This document shows positions 29,366 through 61,020 of a stretch of DNA of 64,000 bases, one piece after another (the stretch's first letter is position 1; every line of letters starts with the position of its first letter). Position numbers and translations under genes: made by a program. The notes under the pieces were generated by a model, which was not told the origin of the DNA, did not search any database, and saw nothing but the letters and a program-made list of their open reading frames with translations. The stretch comes from an uncultured Dehalococcoidia bacterium (GTDB lineage Bacteria > Chloroflexota > Dehalococcoidia > Lucifugimonadales > CATOSD01): contig CATOSD010000002.1 in the NCBI GenBank assembly GCA_951812395.1, positions 672,442-736,441 on the forward strand. Direction: 5' to 3'.

Positions 29366-31153
29366 ATGCCAGCCAGACAGAATAGAGTCGGCGTAGAAAG
29401 GGTCTATGCTGCCGCCCAGAAGTGGGTCAATGCCGCACTGCGAAACGACGACTCACTCTTCACCCCCGGTCGTCCAATTTGGACAACCCAACTACTTGGA
29501 GAGATTCACCGTAAATTCCTGGATAGGCCGGATGGGGGAGGTGGTAGTTTCTACGACCAGTTGGAGAAGCAGTTAGCGGGCAGTCTGCCGGATGTTTACC
29601 AACTCATGGGAGAAGTTCTCTACGCTCACTTGCTGATAGTCTCCACTTCTAACGGTACAAATCAGCAAAGGAGGATCGAAACTGTACTCAATTGGTCGCC
29701 ATCACCTGTGCAGATTCCTCAGGAACTTGTCGCCGCGCTGACGCCAGGGCTAGTAACTCCAGGCCAGGCGTATCACACATATCGTCCCTTCCAAGTTGGA
29801 CTTCTCATTGAGTTCGCTGAGCAGTGGAAAGATCTGGCCCTAGAAGAACGCGAACGACGGTTGAATGCCCCTTGGATGTTCAAAGAATTCGTGATGGGGT
29901 TGCAGCCTCGTAGCCGTCTGCTTCGCAGGAATCAGAATACACCGAGGATACAACGGCAGGCATTGCTTCATCTTGTCCACCCCGATACTTTTGAGGCAAT
30001 AGTCAATATAGATCACAAGAACAAGATAGCGGAAGTCTTCGCAGGCTACGTATCAGATCCCGAGGCGGATGTTGACGTAAAGATGACGCAGATTCGCACC
30101 GCCCTCGAGGCCGAACACGGGCAGGACTTCGGCTTCTACAACGATGATATCCGGCCACAGTGGGATGTTAACGGCATCCCGGTTCCCGTGCCAAACCCTC
30201 AACCTGTGAGTGATGAGAGTGTGCGGCCGACAATAGACCTGAACGCTCTCGCCGCCCAACTCTTCCTACCCGCCGCCTTCCTGCGCGAAATCGACGCGCT
30301 CCTCGCCGACAAGAAGCAGGTCATCTTCCAGGGGCCGCCGGGCACAGGCAAAACCTACGTCGCGCAAAAGCTTGCCAGGCACCTCGCCGGGTCGCCGGAC
30401 CGCGTCACGCTGGTGCAGTTTCACCCGTCCTACGCCTACGAGGACTTCGTACAGGGCTTTCGTCCCACGCTGCGGAACGGGCAGGCGGGTTTCGAGCTGA
30501 CGGACGGACCGCTGCTGCGAGCCGCCGAACGGGCGCGGGGAGAGCCGGAAACGAGGCACTTCCTCATCATCGACGAGATTAACCGCGGCAACCTGGCCAA
30601 GGTGTTTGGGGAGTTGTACTACCTGCTGGAGTATCGTGACGAGAAGATCACGCTCCAGTACCAGGTGGAAGAGGATAAGAAATTCTCTCTGCCAGGCAAC
30701 CTGTACATCATCGGGACGATGAACACCGCCGACCGCTCGATCGCGCTGGTGGACCTGGCACTGCGACGACGCTTCTACTTCGTGGAGTTCCACCCGGACT
30801 CCGAGCCGGTCAAGGGCGTGCTACGCCGCTGGCTGGAATCGAACCATCCCGGCATGGGCTGGGTCGCCGACGTGGTCGAGGAGGCGAACAGGCTTCTAGA
30901 GAGCGACCGGCACGCCGCCATCGGGCCGAGCTACTTCATGCGAGACAGACTAGACGACAGCATCGTGAACCGAATCTGGAAGCATAGCGTGCTGCCGTAC
31001 ATCGAGGAGCGGCGGTTTGGCGGCGAGCTGGTCACCGAAGAGTTCGCACTCGAGAGACTCAGGCGCCGCTCCGCTTCGCCTGCACAGCCCGAGGAAAACG
31101 GCGACGACCCGAAGAACGGCGAGGATGGCGACGCGACTGATGCGCCAGCTTGA
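29366..31153 (+). CDS. mcrB: McrB-like AAA+ GTPase of a type IV restriction system
   Basis: The 595-residue protein has an N-terminal domain of about 290 residues with no motif I recognise; by analogy with McrB it should bind modified DNA. The C-terminal motor has VIFQGPPGTGKTYVAQKLA (Walker A), the McrB-typical FHPSYAYEDFVQGFRP, HFLIIDEINRGNLAKVFGEL (Walker B) and the signature TMNTADRSIALVDLALRRRF. McrB translocates DNA using GTP and activates the McrC nuclease. The N-terminal half is visibly poorer in GC (to about 30240) than the motor half, suggesting that the specificity domain was exchanged. mcrC overlaps the 3' end. Confidence 0.9.
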   Translation: MPARQNRVGVERVYAAAQKWVNAALRNDDSLFTPGRPIWTTQLLGEIHRKFLDRPDGGGGSFYDQLEKQLAGSLPDVYQLMGEVLYAHLLIVSTSNGTNQQRRIETVLNWSPSPVQIPQELVAALTPGLVTPGQAYHTYRPFQVGLLIEFAEQWKDLALEERERRLNAPWMFKEFVMGLQPRSRLLRRNQNTPRIQRQALLHLVHPDTFEAIVNIDHKNKIAEVFAGYVSDPEADVDVKMTQIRTALEAEHGQDFGFYNDDIRPQWDVNGIPVPVPNPQPVSDESVRPTIDLNALAAQLFLPAAFLREIDALLADKKQVIFQGPPGTGKTYVAQKLARHLAGSPDRVTLVQFHPSYAYEDFVQGFRPTLRNGQAGFELTDGPLLRAAERARGEPETRHFLIIDEINRGNLAKVFGELYYLLEYRDEKITLQYQVEEDKKFSLPGNLYIIGTMNTADRSIALVDLALRRRFYFVEFHPDSEPVKGVLRRWLESNHPGMGWVADVVEEANRLLESDRHAAIGPSYFMRDRLDDSIVNRIWKHSVLPYIEERRFGGELVTEEFALERLRRRSASPAQPEENGDDPKNGEDGDATDAPA

Positions 31154-43722: not shown

Positions 43723-44208
43723 TTGGCATCAAGTCTGTTGAACAGCGTCCGGCGCAATCACGCCCTGGAGCACGGCACCGTCACCACGCTGCTTGAGGCC
43801 GGAGCGCGGACGCCGCTGGGCGGCTACTCCACGTCCGGGGGGTTCTTCATACTCGGCCGCGCGTCGCTCGAAGAGGTGCGCGCCGCGGCGCAGGAGGCAC
43901 TCACCTCCCTCCAGGGCGGGCGCAAGGAGCTCGCGATCTCTCCCCACTGCGGCACCAACCTCGCGACGGCCGCGCTGCTGGGCGGCCTCCTGGCAAGGGC
44001 GATTCTCGCCCGCGGCCGCTGGTTCGTCCGGCTGCCCCTGGCCTTGGCCGCCATAGTCGGGGCCGGCATTCTGAGCAGGCCGATCGGCAACGCGCTGCAG
44101 CGGCGCTTCACTACCCTCTCCGAGCTGGACGGCGTGGAAATCACCCGGGTCAGAAGACTGTGGGCCGGCGGACTCTCCCTGTACCGCGTCAGCACGTCGA
44201 CGCGGTAG
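43723..44208 (+). CDS. DUF6391-like membrane protein
   Basis: The 161-residue protein has the N-terminal motif NHALEHGTVTTLLEAG, followed by LGGYSTSGGFFILGRAS, typical of DUF6391 proteins. A conserved SPHCGTNLATAALLGGL segment leads into two membrane helices (about residues 80-97 and 104-124). Function is unknown. The start is TTG 43723 with an AGGAGGAGG site. It stands alone between an unassigned region and tRNA-Arg. Confidence 0.75.
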   Translation: MASSLLNSVRRNHALEHGTVTTLLEAGARTPLGGYSTSGGFFILGRASLEEVRAAAQEALTSLQGGRKELAISPHCGTNLATAALLGGLLARAILARGRWFVRLPLALAAIVGAGILSRPIGNALQRRFTTLSELDGVEITRVRRLWAGGLSLYRVSTSTR

Positions 44209-44399: not shown

Positions 44400-44672
44400 A
44401 CCGAATCGCGTTCTGATATTCAAATATGTGCCTGCTTGCAGCCACCCGCGTTTCGCGATATGTACTTTGCAAAACCGCACCGTGGCCGCCGGTCGCGGAC
44501 TGCTGGACGAGTCGCAAGGCGCCAATTCGCCACAGTAGACGGCAGTGTTTGCGAAATGCGGATGTAGCGCTATTCGATCTAATGACCCATGGCTTAGTGA
44601 AGATATCGAAACAGCATATGCGGTTCGTGTCACTAACTGTAAGAATATCCCAATTGGCAAAGAGGAGTGGAA

Positions 44673-45335
44673 ATGAGCGCCAGTTTTTCGGCCGAACTGC
44701 GGCAAGAAGCCGCTTCCATATGGGGCGACATCATGGAGCATCCCTTCCTGCTGGAGCTGCAGCGGGGCTCCCTGCCTGTAGAGAGCTTCCGATACTACGT
44801 GATCCAGGACTACCACTATATGGAAGGGTTCGGCCGGGTCGTTTCGATAGCCCTGTCCAAGGCCCCGGACACCGAGGCCATCCGGCAGCTCGCGAGGCGC
44901 GTCACCACGCCCGTCGAACGTCCCCTGCACTCCCGCATGTTCGACCTGCTCGGCGTCACGGAGGAGGAGGCCGAGGCCGCCAACGCATCGCCGACCAACC
45001 TCGCCTACGTCAATCACATGCTCACCGCCGCCTCCATGGGCGGCGTCGGCGAGGCCGCCGCGGCCATACTCCCCTGCCCCTGGAGCTACCACGAGATAGG
45101 CCGGCAACTCCAGCCATCGCCCCATCCCGTCTATGGCCGTTGGGTCGAGGCCTACTCCTCTGGTATCCTTGAGGAGAGCACGGCGGCCTGGCGCGAACTG
45201 GTGGACCGATTCGGCGTGGAGGGCGGCCCTGCCGTAAGGTCGGCGATGCGCGAGGCGTTCCTGGCCAGCTCGCGCTACGAGCACATGTTTTGGTCGATGG
45301 CCTACTCGCAAGAGCAGTGGCCGGTGGCCTTGTAG
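44673..45335 (+). CDS. tenA: TenA-family thiaminase II / aminopyrimidine aminohydrolase
   Basis: The 220-residue all-helical protein has the TenA motifs HPFLLELQRGSLPVESFRYYVIQDYHYMEGFGR, the nucleophile Cys in AILPCPWSYHEIG and the late SSRYEHMFWSMAY with the acidic/aromatic active-site residues. TenA hydrolyses thiamin breakdown products (aminopyrimidines) to recycle them into thiamin. The ATG at 44673 follows an AGAGGAG site; GTG 44667 is also in frame. No TPP riboswitch is visible in the 270 bp upstream. Confidence 0.9.
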   Translation: MSASFSAELRQEAASIWGDIMEHPFLLELQRGSLPVESFRYYVIQDYHYMEGFGRVVSIALSKAPDTEAIRQLARRVTTPVERPLHSRMFDLLGVTEEEAEAANASPTNLAYVNHMLTAASMGGVGEAAAAILPCPWSYHEIGRQLQPSPHPVYGRWVEAYSSGILEESTAAWRELVDRFGVEGGPAVRSAMREAFLASSRYEHMFWSMAYSQEQWPVAL

Positions 45336-45385: not shown

Positions 45386-46876
45386 ATGAGGACACAGAGC
45401 TACGCGGGCACCGTCAACGCCCCGGAATTCCCGAAAGGAATGGACTGGCTGAACACCGAGCAGCCCCTCTCGCTGGAGGACCTGCGGGGGAAGATCGTCA
45501 TCCTGGACTTCTGGACCTACTGTTGAGTCAACTGCATGCACGTATTTCCGCAGTTGCGGAAACTGGAAGAGAAGTACAGCAACGAGCTGGTGGTCGTGGG
45601 TGTGCACTCCGCGAAGTTCACCGCCGAGAAAGACACCGAGAACGTGCGCAGGGCGATCCTGCGCTACGAGATCGAACACCCCGTCGCCAACGACTCCGAC
45701 TTCGTAATCTGGCAGACCTACGCCGTCAGGGCGTGGCCCACGCTCATGTTCGTCGACCCCCGCGGCAAGGTCATCGGCAAGCACGAGGGTGAGATTGTCC
45801 TGGAGCCGTTCGACAACATCATCGCCGAGATGGTGCGCGAGTTCGACGGCGACGGCCTAATCGACCGCCGCCCCATGACCTTCAAGCTCGAAAGCGAGAA
45901 GGAATGGGAGCGGCCCCTGTCCTTCCCGGGCAAGGTGATGGCGGACGCCGCCTCCGGCCGGCTGTTCATAGCCGACTCCAACCACAACCGCGTGCTGGTG
46001 ACGACGCTGGATGGCGATGTCACTCAGGTCATAGGCAGCGGCGAGCGTGGCCTTGCCGATGGCCAAGCGCACGACGCGCAGTTCGACGACCCTCAGGGCA
46101 TGGCGCTCGACGGCGACACTCTGTACGTCGCGGACACCAAGAACCACTCGATTCGCCGCGTCGCGCTCGACTCCGGGCGCGTTGACACCATCGCGGGCGT
46201 GGGCGAGCAGGCGATGCGCTTCCACTCCGGAGGGGACGGGCCTTCCACGGCGCTGAACTCACCCTGGGACCTTGAGCTGCGCGACGGCACGCTCTACGTC
46301 GCCATGGCCGGCTTCCACCAGCTCTGGCGGATTCGCCTGGACACGGGCGAGGTCCTGCCCCACGCCGGATCGGGACGCGAGAACATCGTGGACGGACCCC
46401 TGAACTCCGCCCAGCTCGCCCAGCCCAGCGGGATCGCTGCCATCGACGACAAGCTGTACTTTACCGACAGCGAGACCAGCGCAATTCGCTCCTCCGACGT
46501 CGACCCGGGCGGCCGCGTCCAGACCGTAGTCGGCCAGGGACTGTTCACGTTCGGCGACGCCGACGGCGTGGGCGACGATGTGCGGCTCCAGCACCCCATC
46601 GGCATCGACGCCGCCGACGGCGTCCTCTACATCACCGACAGCTACAACAACAAGATCAAGCGCGTGTATCCCGCCACGCGAGGCTGCATGACGATGCTGG
46701 GCAGCGGCGCCGCCGGCCACAAGGACGGCCCGGCGCGCGAGGCTGAGTTCTACGAGCCTTCCGGCGTGAGCGCGGCGGCGGGCAAACTCTACGTCGCCGA
46801 CACCAATAACCACTCCATACGCGTAGCCGACCTCGAAACCGGTCACGTAGAGACACTGGAGCTGCGAGGCCTCTAG
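45386..46876 (+). CDS. Selenocysteine-containing thioredoxin/NHL-repeat protein
   Basis: The gene reads 496 residues if TGA at 45524-45526 (codon 47) is decoded as selenocysteine. The N-terminal thioredoxin fold (about 1-150) has [21 protein letters not shown]; relatives have WTYCCINCMH, so Sec replaces the first Cys of the CxxC redox site (UVNC). The fold continues through VVGVHSAKF and [11 protein letters not shown]. Residues about 165-496 are an NHL beta-propeller with repeats such as [22 protein letters not shown] and [18 protein letters not shown]. Both sides of the TGA are needed for a complete fold. A SECIS-like hairpin lies 18-36 bases downstream and selC is in the same window. The start has GGTGA 7 bases upstream. 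Annotators would usually call a truncated gene at 45536. Confidence 0.88.
45545..45562 (+). promoter_or_regulatory. SECIS-like element in the selenoprotein reading frame
   Basis: TTTCCGC (45545-45551), loop AGTT and GCGGAAA (45556-45562) form a perfect 7-bp stem with a G in the second loop position. The apical loop begins 25 bases after the TGA, within the range expected for bacterial SECIS hairpins. A competing pairing CAACTGC (45529-45535) with GCAGTTG (45550-45556) is also possible. Confidence 0.7.
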
Positions 46877-58635: not shown

Positions 58636-59829
58636 ATGACGCCAGGCGAAAAGGCCATTTATCTGGACCACTCGGCGACGACCCCGGTCCGCCGGGAGGT
58701 GCTTGAGGCCATGCTCCCCTACTTCGGGGTCAACTTCGGCAACCCGTCAAGTATCTATACGCTCGCGCAGCAGGCGCGGATGGCGATGGATGACGCCCGC
58801 GAAGTCGTCGCCCGGGGTTTGGGAGCCCGCACCGGCGAGATCGTGTTCACCAGCGGGGGTACCGAGTCCGACAACACCGCTATCAAAGGCGCGGCCTTTG
58901 CTCTGCGCCGCCTCGGCAATCACATCATCACCACCGGCATCGAACACCACGCCGTGCTGCACACCTGCCACCAGTTGGAGCAGTTCGGCTTCGACGTGAC
59001 CTACCTGCCAACGGACTCTCATGGCCTCGTCGATCCGGACGACGTTGCCGAGGCGATCACCGACGATACGACCGTGGTGAGCGTGATGCTCGCCAACAAC
59101 GAGATCGGCACTGTACAGCCAATAGCCGAGATAGCGCGCATAGTGAAGGCCGAGGCCGCGCGCAGAGGCCGCACAATCGTCGTTCACACCGACGCGGTGC
59201 AGGCCGCGGGATTTCTCGACCTGGATGTCAAGACGCTCGGCGTGGACATGCTCAGCCTGTCGGCCCACAAGTTCTACGGTCCCAAGGGCGTCGGCGCGCT
59301 CTACATCAAGCGCGGTACGCCCTTCGAGCCGCAGCAGCAGGGCGGCGGCCAGGAGAGGCAGCGCCGCTCCGGCACGGAAAACGTGCCCCTCATCGTGGGA
59401 TTCGCCGAAGCGTTCAGGCTCGCCAACGGGGAGCGGCAGTCCGCGTCGGCGCACTGCGAGGCGCTTCGAGACAGGCTGGCCCGCGGCATACTCGACTCCG
59501 TGTCGGGCGCCCACCTCAACGGCCACCCGACTCTCAGGCTGCCCAACAACCTGAACGTCTCTTTCGAGGGCGTAGAAGGCGAGCCAATCCTGCTCAGCCT
59601 CGACTTTTCCGGCGTCTACGCCTCCAGCGGCAGCGCCTGCTCGTCCGCCAGCCTCGAGCCCTCCCACGTCCTCGTGGCCATCGGTCGCTCCGCGACGCTG
59701 GCGCAGGGCAGTCTGCGCTTCACGTTGGGGCGGGACAACACGGAGGAGGACGTCGATTACGTTCTCTCGGTGCTGCCGGGCATGGTCGAAAAGCTCAGAA
59801 ACATGCCCTCTCTTTCCGCGGTGGAATGA
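58636..59829 (+). CDS. Cysteine desulfurase (IscS/NifS-type)
   Basis: The 397-residue class V PLP enzyme has [82 protein letters not shown] with the PLP lysine, and the flexible loop SGSACSS with the catalytic Cys. It supplies persulfide sulfur for Fe-S clusters and tRNA thiolation. Some homologues also act as selenocysteine lyases, which is notable beside selC, but the loop is the ordinary IscS type. ATG 58636 follows the MITE. Confidence 0.9.
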
Positions 59830-60410
59830 TCCTGCGAATGCGCGCACCACTTCTTTCGTTCGCCGTAGCGCCGTGCTCGTTGCTGAAGGTAGCCCTTTTG
59901 GCGCTTGCCGCCTCCGCGCTACTGTTGGCGGCAGCGGGATGCGGTGGCGGCGACTCGGGCCTGGTCGCCAAGCGAGGCCGCAGCCTGGAGATACACTCCA
60001 CCATGCCGGAAATCGTGGAGAAGGTCGCATACACCGGCCAGGACGGCCGGCACCGCGTGATACGCCCCATTGCCTCAAATCGCCGCATCGCCGTGGCCCA
60101 GGTGACCGTGGTGAACCGGACCACGACCGTCGTTCCGCTGCTGGTGGACGAAGCCGCCGCTGAGATTGGCGACAGGCGTTCCCGCCGCGTGGAGGCGGTC
60201 GACCCGGTGGAAATGGCAGAGGTAGTTGACACCTCCAGCGCCGACTCAAACGTGTTCACCCCTTTCCTGTGGGGCAAGATCGAACTAGCCCGCGATACGC
60301 AGGTGAGCGGCTGGATGGTGTTCGACGTCCCCCAGGGAATGACGCTTGGCACTCTCTGGTGGAACGAAGTGGACGACATCCTGGTAGACTACATCGACTA
60401 TCGCAGATAG
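59826..60410 (+). CDS. Hypothetical lipoprotein
   Basis: The 194-residue protein has a signal sequence with lipobox LLAAAGCGG and then a beta-rich domain containing [36 protein letters not shown] and [21 protein letters not shown]. The shape resembles DUF4352-type beta-sandwich lipoproteins, which bind or shield other envelope proteins, but the family match is not certain. ATG 59826 overlaps the desulfurase stop; ATG 59838 would give a more typical signal peptide. Function is unknown. Confidence 0.7.
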
Positions 60411-60527
60411 GGGCCGGCGCTCTGTTTTCACGCCGTGGGCCGCATGATATATTAGCTTGAGAACGGACGGCAAAACCGGACCGGGCCGTATTGCCACCCG
60501 CCTGGCCCGAGACATTGGAGGAACTCT

Positions 60528-60854
60528 ATGACGCATCCCGTGGACGTAACCGACGCCACGTTCGAGTCCAACGTGCTGAAGGCGGACATTCCAGTGCTGG
60601 TGGACTTCTGGGCCGACTGGTGCGCGCCCTGCAAGATGATCGCGCCCATTGTCGAAGACCTGGCCGAGGAGTATGACGGCCGGGTAAAGTTCGCCAAGCT
60701 CGACGTCGACAGCAATCCCCAGACTGCCATGAACTACGGTGTCCGGGGAATCCCTACACTGCTGATATTCAAAGGCGGCAGTCCCGTCAACCAGGTGGTC
60801 GGGGCGGTGCCCAAGTCCGTGCTCAAGGGCAAGCTGGAAGAGTCGCTGGCGTAG
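60528..60854 (+). CDS. trxA: Thioredoxin
   Basis: The 108-residue protein has DATFESNVLKADIPVLVDFWADWCAPCKMIAPIVEDLAEEY, with redox site WCAPC in place of the common WCGPC, followed by FAKLDVDSNPQTAMNYGVRGIPTLLIFKGG including the cis-Pro. It reduces protein disulfides in the cytosol. It precedes selC and is a canonical Cys-only relative of the selenocysteine thioredoxin at 45386. Confidence 0.95.
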   Translation: MTHPVDVTDATFESNVLKADIPVLVDFWADWCAPCKMIAPIVEDLAEEYDGRVKFAKLDVDSNPQTAMNYGVRGIPTLLIFKGGSPVNQVVGAVPKSVLKGKLEESLA

Positions 60855-60885
60855 TCCCGCGACGGGCCGCCGGCCCGGAGGGCCA

Positions 60886-60903
60886 GCTCGCCGCGCGGCG
60901 AGC
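60886..60903. terminator. 18-bp perfect palindrome between trxA and selC
   Basis: GCTCGCCGC-GCGGCGAGC is a perfect palindrome 31 bp after the trxA stop and 19 bp before selC. There is no U-tract. It may terminate trxA transcription or be a processing site. Confidence 0.5.
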
Positions 60904-60922
60904 GAAGCGGCGGCAATCCCGG

Positions 60923-61020
60923 GGGAGCGAATGGGCCCTGGTGGGTCTCCCGGACTTCAAATCCGTTGGTCCCGGCCCTGCGGTCGGGACGGTGGGTTCG
61001 ACTCCCTCTCGCTCCCGCCA
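60923..61020 (+). tRNA. selC: tRNA-Sec (anticodon TCA)
   Basis: The 8-bp acceptor stem GGGAGCGA/TCGCTCCC (60923-60930, 61009-61016), long D stem (GGGCCC/GGGTCT with a TGGT loop), anticodon loop CTTCAAA with TCA at 60957-60959, and long variable arm with GTCCCG/CGGGAC stem are diagnostic of selenocysteine tRNA. The T arm has GGTTCGACT; its stem has one T-T mismatch. Discriminator G and encoded CCA follow. Confidence 0.95.

Follow-up and report, generated by a model that had tools for sequence, protein, structure and literature searches.

Does the single TGA inside a thioredoxin-like gene of an uncultured Dehalococcoidia bacterium encode selenocysteine (Sec), and if so, what kind of protein carries it? 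The gene lies at positions 45386–46876 (plus strand) of the window, which here means the whole 64,000-nucleotide stretch of DNA that we analysed. On comparative evidence, it is a real selenoprotein gene. As far as we could search, its product is an undescribed Sec variant of a known, medically relevant family, that of human NHLRC2 and Arabidopsis SOQ1.

A thioredoxin–propeller gene with one in-frame TGA

The frame ends in TAG and contains one in-frame TGA, at codon 47 (45524–45526, plus strand). With Sec at this codon the product has 496 residues and the motif W-T-Y-C-U-V-N-C around the site; the active-site motif itself, C-U-V-N-C (Cys46, Sec47 and Cys50; 45521–45535, plus strand), is assigned from the translation and the alignment of loci. 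The initial annotation had described a TGA directly after WTYC in a frame that is otherwise open with uniform codon use. That is what we find: third-position GC is 0.91 upstream of the TGA and 0.88 downstream.

The protein has a thioredoxin-like domain and a β-propeller. The former spans residues 10–155 or thereabouts (45413–45850, plus strand), as judged from Pfam Thioredoxin_8 (residues 35–129, E 2e-17) and AlphaFold secondary structure. The NHL-repeat propeller (Pfam NHL, 1.2e-30) spans residues 181–490, again approximately (45926–46855, plus strand), and has 24 strands in six blades in the AlphaFold model. The two Pfam matches bear out the architecture proposed initially; no NCBIfam model scored over its cut-off on this protein. 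The model, built from a 40-row alignment, has a pLDDT of 94.6 and a pTM of 0.92. Foldseek aligns both of its domains with 6gc1 chain A (TM 0.93/0.84 over 512 columns, 1.8 Å) and with 7djk (TM 0.93/0.90 over 515 columns, 2.0 Å). Sec47 is predicted to sit where the thioredoxin helix starts, in the cleft that the thioredoxin domain forms with the six-bladed propeller. Frame, Pfam domains, PDB sequence match, AlphaFold model and fold match thus all point to a Sec-containing gene of the NHLRC2/SOQ1 type. By eye, the N-terminus has no hydrophobic stretch or signal peptide, so that of the two locations first suggested, periplasm and cytosol, the cytosol is the probable one.

Codon 47 and the hairpin downstream

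What stands at codon 47 in the homologues? Scanning a genome collection with residues 1–145 returned 61 loci, and 59 genomes of the same order yielded further ones. Of 111 loci examined, 88 cover codon 47; the remaining 23 (20 sel-gene loci and three matches outside the site) were excluded. TGA occupies the site in 51 of the 88, TGC does so in 25 and TGT in 12; these are the only codons there. Removal of duplicate contexts left 83 distinct ones, 46 with TGA and 37 with Cys. Ten of the Cys contexts (L041–L050) match in the thioredoxin part only and were omitted from the tree described below; they have Thr before CxxC, and 'DipZ-like' is our own label for them. The WTYCCINCMH relatives mentioned in the initial annotation are there too, at L084 and L085.

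Wider sampling gave the same picture. In the same-order draw, a full-length match occurs in 17 of 59 genomes including the window's own, 15 with one TGA and two without. A phylum-wide draw of 251 genomes gave 50 with a match at E ≤ 1e-70, of which 38 have one internal TGA and 12 have none. Twenty-nine of these 50 matches were read at codon 47: 27 have TGA and two have Cys, at the identical codon position, and 25 of the TGA contexts are new, which brings the set to 71 (46 plus 25). UGA therefore stands where homologues have the catalytic Cys, the mark of a bacterial selenoprotein (51 versus 37 in the 88 loci, 27 versus 2 in 29 more). Two ways in which the Sec reading might fail had been named at the outset. 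Homologues might have a stop or an unrelated codon at this position, and in the loci read we find only TGA or Cys. The TGA might also be a sequencing error, which is very unlikely because the same TGA recurs in dozens of separate genomes.

The carriers of the TGA form include a cultured organism, Thermosporothrix hazakensis ATCC BAA-1881 (L089), in whose genome selA is present. Two Cys-type homologues (L097 and L107) lie on contigs filed as Thermoplasmatota archaea, possibly mis-binned bacterial contigs. The passages of PMC6107167 (2018) that treat the distribution of NHLRC2 homologues report none in archaea and already list Chloroflexi among the groups that have them.

Downstream of the TGA is a hairpin, TTTCCGC-AGTT-GCGGAAA (45545–45562, plus strand). 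We confirm the initial description of a 7-bp stem and an AGTT (in RNA, AGUU) loop beginning 18 nt 3′ of the TGA. The section on bacterial SECIS (bSECIS) elements in PMC13188914 gives a loop of 3–9 nt, a stem of 4–16 bp, a G in the first two loop positions, a distance of 16–37 nt from UGA to loop and a minimum free energy of −7.5 kcal/mol or lower. The hairpin here falls within all of these bounds, with a loop of 4 nt, a stem of 7 bp, G at loop position 2, a distance of 25 nt and an energy of −9.3 kcal/mol (33-nt segment).

Folding energy proved too weak to identify a SECIS. The hairpin with its flanks is not unusually stable (dinucleotide-shuffle z = +0.76), and 67% of synonymous shuffles of the window gene (L021) fold at least as well. 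The median synonymous-shuffle z is −0.96 in the 46 TGA contexts and −0.12 in the 37 Cys contexts; 8 and 2 of these contexts, respectively, are at or below 0.05. Because folding energy is unremarkable, the case for a SECIS rests on conservation and covariation.

The codons that form the hairpin are frozen in the TGA contexts. Leu57, inside the hairpin, is TTG in all 71 (46/46 and 25/25). By comparison, TTG makes up 12.6% of the Leu codons in the downstream portion of the first 46 genes, and 3 of the 37 Cys contexts have it. Where residue 54 is Phe, it is encoded by TTT in 39 of 40 TGA contexts (background 24%). In the first 46 TGA contexts, Pro55 is CCG in 45 of 45 (background 34%), Arg58 is CGG in 44 (27%) and Lys59 is AAA in 34 of 44 (22%). 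The loop is AGTT in 69 of the 71 contexts and CGTT in two. The first 46 contexts include 44 with all seven pairs complete, and the 25 new ones include 22; in the folds of L142 and L143 the register of the stem is shifted. Of the hairpin cells in Cys contexts, 48% pair.

Moreover, the stem covaries. The 71 TGA contexts hold 13 distinct hairpins, in which 91% of cells are paired against 80 ± 2% in shuffles. For the covariation test, 16 rows were chosen by hand from the 71 to span this variety. Their score is 0.396 against 0.180 ± 0.033 for shuffles, none of which reached it (0/500), and slid structures score at most 0.157. Two-sided changed cells in these 16 rows number 13, compared with 4.2 in shuffles; the count of pairs with a change on both sides, three, is not above shuffles (154/500). 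A covariance model built partly on the Sec gene and run on the genome gives that gene 60.8 bits and the next match 16.1; such a scan says little about other types of SECIS.

In two Ktedonobacter Cys genes (L087 and L090), whose genomes retain selA, both the AGTT loop and the TTG codon persist, and the stem has one inner mismatch. By its sequence, this hairpin looks like a decaying, relict SECIS.

Sec machinery and the history of the gene

The window's tRNA-Sec gene (selC), noted initially, is indeed present at 60923–61016 on the plus strand (ARAGORN; RF01852, 69.4 bits against a gathering threshold of 47). It is the last in a row of genes at 58636–61016 (plus strand) comprising a NifS-type cysteine desulfurase, an unidentified open reading frame, the thioredoxin TrxA and tRNA-Sec; the desulfurase and TrxA are plausibly selenium-supply or reductant genes. 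Absence of selA, selB and selD from the genome had been named as a reason to reject Sec, and all three score over their curated cut-offs: selA at 541.3 bits (cut-off 267.9), selB at 312.8 bits, or 337.1 with in-frame neighbours (cut-off 242.25), and selD at 396.3 bits (cut-off 125). The selD gene (L013) has one in-frame TGA of its own and probably encodes a selenoprotein itself.

Does the machinery follow the codon in other genomes? We tested for selA in 30 of them: all 17 same-order carriers of the gene, plus 13 selected among the 61 loci. Of the 20 TGA genomes, 19 have selA over the cut-off, as do 6 of the 10 Cys genomes. The one TGA genome in which selA is only a fragment, G040, is 83% complete and in 260 contigs. 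The six Cys genomes with selA belong to Ktedonobacteraceae (four) and Planctomycetota (two). G031 and G041, the Cys genomes of the same order, both lack selA. Their best tRNA-Sec matches (E 1.2e-7 and 50.7 bits) are at a level also reached by second matches, which are probably other long tRNAs. A tRNA-Sec of at least 62 bits is found in 14 of the 15 same-order TGA genomes; the exception, G042, has no strong tRNA-Sec match although selA is present. Over the family cut-off, tRNA-Sec occurs in 52 of the 59 same-order genomes, and in some of them the score is no better than other long tRNAs reach. Its presence is therefore not specific, being common in the order with or without the Sec gene.

On a tree of 73 rows, made by a quick method with residue 47 masked and the hairpin-bound residues unmasked, the TGA/Cys label changes 4 times, against 22.2 times with shuffled labels. 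One reading of this tree, and not a proof, is a single gain of Sec in Chloroflexota followed by reversion in G031, G041 and Ktedonobacteraceae; several of its deep branches are weakly supported. Three of the loci (L065, L059 and L058) come from bins named like SAR202 bins 22, 87 and 90, which are named in the sponge-symbiont study PMC5649159; according to the relevant part of that study, most symbiont bins have SelA and SelB together.

Could the TGA be anything other than a Sec codon? If it were a true stop or a nonsense mutation, translation might restart at the ATG at 45536, where a mechanically called open reading frame (45536–46876) does exist; its product of 446 residues would be without the attacking residue and without the first strand of the thioredoxin domain. 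Yet the codons upstream of the TGA evolve as coding sequence (divergence 0.24, 0.15 and 0.51 at codon positions 1, 2 and 3) and, in the 40-row alignment, line up with the thioredoxin N-terminus. A stop also fits poorly with a TGA fixed at one position in dozens of genomes, where Cys alone alternates with it in the loci read, and with hairpin codons that are frozen in the TGA contexts but not in the Cys contexts. We regard stop and restart as very improbable. Reassignment of TGA to another amino acid (Trp, for instance, as in code 4), or its suppression as Cys, would equally leave the frame open, and is the least probable of the explanations that we considered. Other genes of the window end in TGA, such as those for ValRS and NifS and the open reading frame 29366–31153; the Sec gene itself uses TGG seven times and TGA once; all rows read that lack the TGA have Cys at the aligned position; and the genome has the Sec pathway.

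Relation to NHLRC2 and SOQ1 and likely function

Two structurally characterized proteins share the whole architecture. Human NHLRC2 (6gc1; phmmer 3.8e-114, 40% identity over the 1.8 Å fold alignment) likewise has a thioredoxin-like domain and a six-bladed NHL propeller, with the same CC(I/V)NC site and cleft, and is described as cytosolic in the parts of PMC6107167 concerned. It differs in having Cys90 in place of Sec47 and, according to the same account, an extra C-terminal β-stranded domain. The lumenal domains of Arabidopsis SOQ1 (7djj and 7djk) are the best PDB sequence match (7.8e-135; 44% identity and 2.0 Å for 7djk) and have CCINC at the same site. Unlike the Sec protein, SOQ1 is a Cys form, and these domains are the thylakoid-lumen part of a larger protein with a HAD domain and a transmembrane helix; it acts in the photoprotection process qH. 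The C-terminal domains of DipZ (2hyx and 5cyy) offer a more partial likeness, a related thioredoxin-like module that matches residues 12–136 (2.9e-22), this part only.

At the active site, C-C-(I/V)-N-C of NHLRC2 and SOQ1 becomes C-U-V-N-C here, so that Sec replaces the middle Cys and the rest is kept; the strictly all-Cys site occurs only in the Cys relatives. The initial annotation had Sec replacing the resolving or attacking Cys of the redox pair. Sec47 matches NHLRC2 Cys90, the first and normally attacking Cys of CxxC, and so the second half of that proposal stands and the first does not. Cys50 is present in all 46 of the first TGA contexts. Cys46 is present in 44 and replaced by Ala in two, and residue 46 is Gly in L118, from the phylum-wide set. 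Sec47 and Cys50 are thus the constant pair, and Cys46 is probably auxiliary, since certain Sec forms have Ala or Gly in its place.

In selenoenzymes that have been studied in detail, the reacting atom is that of Sec. Natural exchange of Sec and Cys at the NHLRC2 Cys90 position is for this reason indirect evidence that the site is chemically active, and it names the attacking residue. In NHLRC2, CCINC occupies residues 89–93, and Cys89 and Cys90 are described as exposed near the propeller (PMC6107167, in part).

What might this pair do? UGA47 would be decoded by SelB and tRNA-Sec under the control of the in-gene bSECIS 18 nt downstream, as the comparative evidence suggests. The propeller may then dock a particular client, Sec47 would attack an oxidized sulfur of that client, Cys50 would resolve the intermediate, and the U47/C50 pair could be reset by thioredoxin or another thiol system of the cell. 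The protein would be a cytosolic, client-specific redox enzyme; we do not claim general disulfide reduction. Taken whole, a Sec form of NHLRC2/SOQ1 with UGA47 recoded through a bSECIS and a client-specific redox activity is in our judgement a highly probable explanation of the gene.

There is one serious rival, and it concerns the function and not the codon. Instead of carrying out thiol-disulfide exchange with a client, Sec47 might react with peroxides or oxidants as a sensor, or might gate binding according to its redox state; the propeller would then serve as an interaction platform. According to the biochemical passages of PMC6107167, neither full-length NHLRC2 nor its isolated thioredoxin-like domain reduced insulin in the classical assay. 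Its authors took this to suggest the absence of thiol-disulfide exchange, though they still called the family a likely conserved redox enzyme; they also note that NHL propellers are often protein-binding modules. The lack of a conserved neighbour gene that points to a substrate is compatible with a sensor as well. On the other side, the invariance of the resolving Cys50 in the first 46 TGA contexts fits a redox pair that cycles. Insulin, moreover, is a generic substrate that a client-specific enzyme may not reduce, and later SOQ1 work is cited in a passage of PMC10173003 as supporting transfer of reducing power to a target. With NHLRC2 negative on insulin and a reducing role argued for SOQ1, we propose the client-specific redox enzyme and consider the sensor or switch rather unlikely, though far less so than a misread codon. 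The 'highly reactive oxidoreductase' of the initial annotation may prove apt for the Sec protein, with the insulin result for human NHLRC2 to be set beside it.

We also searched the gene neighbourhood for clues to function. A TenA/THI-4/PQQC-family gene (44667–45335, plus strand; Pfam 3.7e-43) ends 50 nt upstream of the Sec gene, and a TenA-like gene precedes the homologue in 8 of the 61 loci; it is a possible operon partner, in some relatives only. Recurrent neighbours other than the TenA-like gene each occur in at most 10 of the 61 loci; nine recurrent ones were scanned, including dienelactone hydrolase, class-III aminotransferase, NUDIX and aldehyde dehydrogenase genes. No partner is family-wide in these loci, and we therefore propose no substrate. 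A DUF6391 gene lies at 43723–44208, on the same strand as the Sec gene; upstream genes in L060 (DUF6391), L051, L056 and L058 are DUF6391-like.

Two other thioredoxin-like genes have a TGA at a comparable site. L113 (G022:C5:11800–13700, minus strand, TGA 1066–1064) encodes a small thioredoxin with a signal-like N-terminus and WTYG-TGA-INC. The TGA is followed by a hairpin found by eye (CCCAC-AGTTG-GTGGG), which the SECIS model scores at 23 bits (E 9.5e-5); the same order may have in L113 a second Sec thioredoxin, a secreted one. L112 (G006:C49:29000–30900, TGA 866–868) encodes a thioredoxin-like protein with WTYT-TGA-INC and has no clear copy of the AGTT hairpin. It is possibly a third Sec form of the superfamily.

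Has a Sec form of NHLRC2/SOQ1 been described before? The initial annotation called the selenoprotein undescribed. We found no report of the Sec form in open-licence PMC papers (main texts, without supplements), but the architecture is already known from the NHLRC2/SOQ1 family. Table 1 of PMC13188914, a catalogue from May 2026 that covers 119 families and subfamilies of prokaryotic selenoproteins, lists UxxC thioredoxin-like selenoproteins that, like ours, have Sec first in UxxC, a thioredoxin fold and a downstream bSECIS. By the names and domain identifiers given there, none of the entries is of the NHL or NHLRC2 type. Two generic ones, 'Thiol-disulfide isomerase-like' and 'Redoxin family', were compared by name, not by sequence, and a passage of the 2022 review PMC9312934 assigns one of these two to PF13905, the same Pfam domain as in the Sec gene. 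The term 'NHL' is absent from the main texts of PMC13188914, PMC12013277, PMC9312934, PMC2398784, PMC5029168, PMC1088965, PMC4807772 and PMC1794560. The single paper found to contain both 'NHLRC2' and 'selenocysteine', PMC7479077, mentions them in the passages concerned as two separate structural templates, and the 'selen' words in the passages of PMC6107167 refer to selenomethionine or selenomethionyl.

We think it likely that the Sec form of NHLRC2/SOQ1 is a common, old and previously unreported selenoprotein of Chloroflexota, which arose once and on several occasions went back to Cys, a change that in the window's order was accompanied by loss of the Sec machinery. Its Sec position would then mark NHLRC2 Cys90 and the corresponding SOQ1 residue as the reactive redox site in a family common to bacteria, plants and animals, despite the failed insulin assay. 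NHLRC2 is essential and is mutated in FINCA disease, and its biochemical activity was still unknown in 2018, as stated in the portion of PMC6107167 on its background. That question becomes testable through a naturally more reactive form with a cultured carrier. For selenium biology, the gene adds a selenoprotein found across many Chloroflexota, one in which the RNA signal visibly constrains the surrounding codons and residues.
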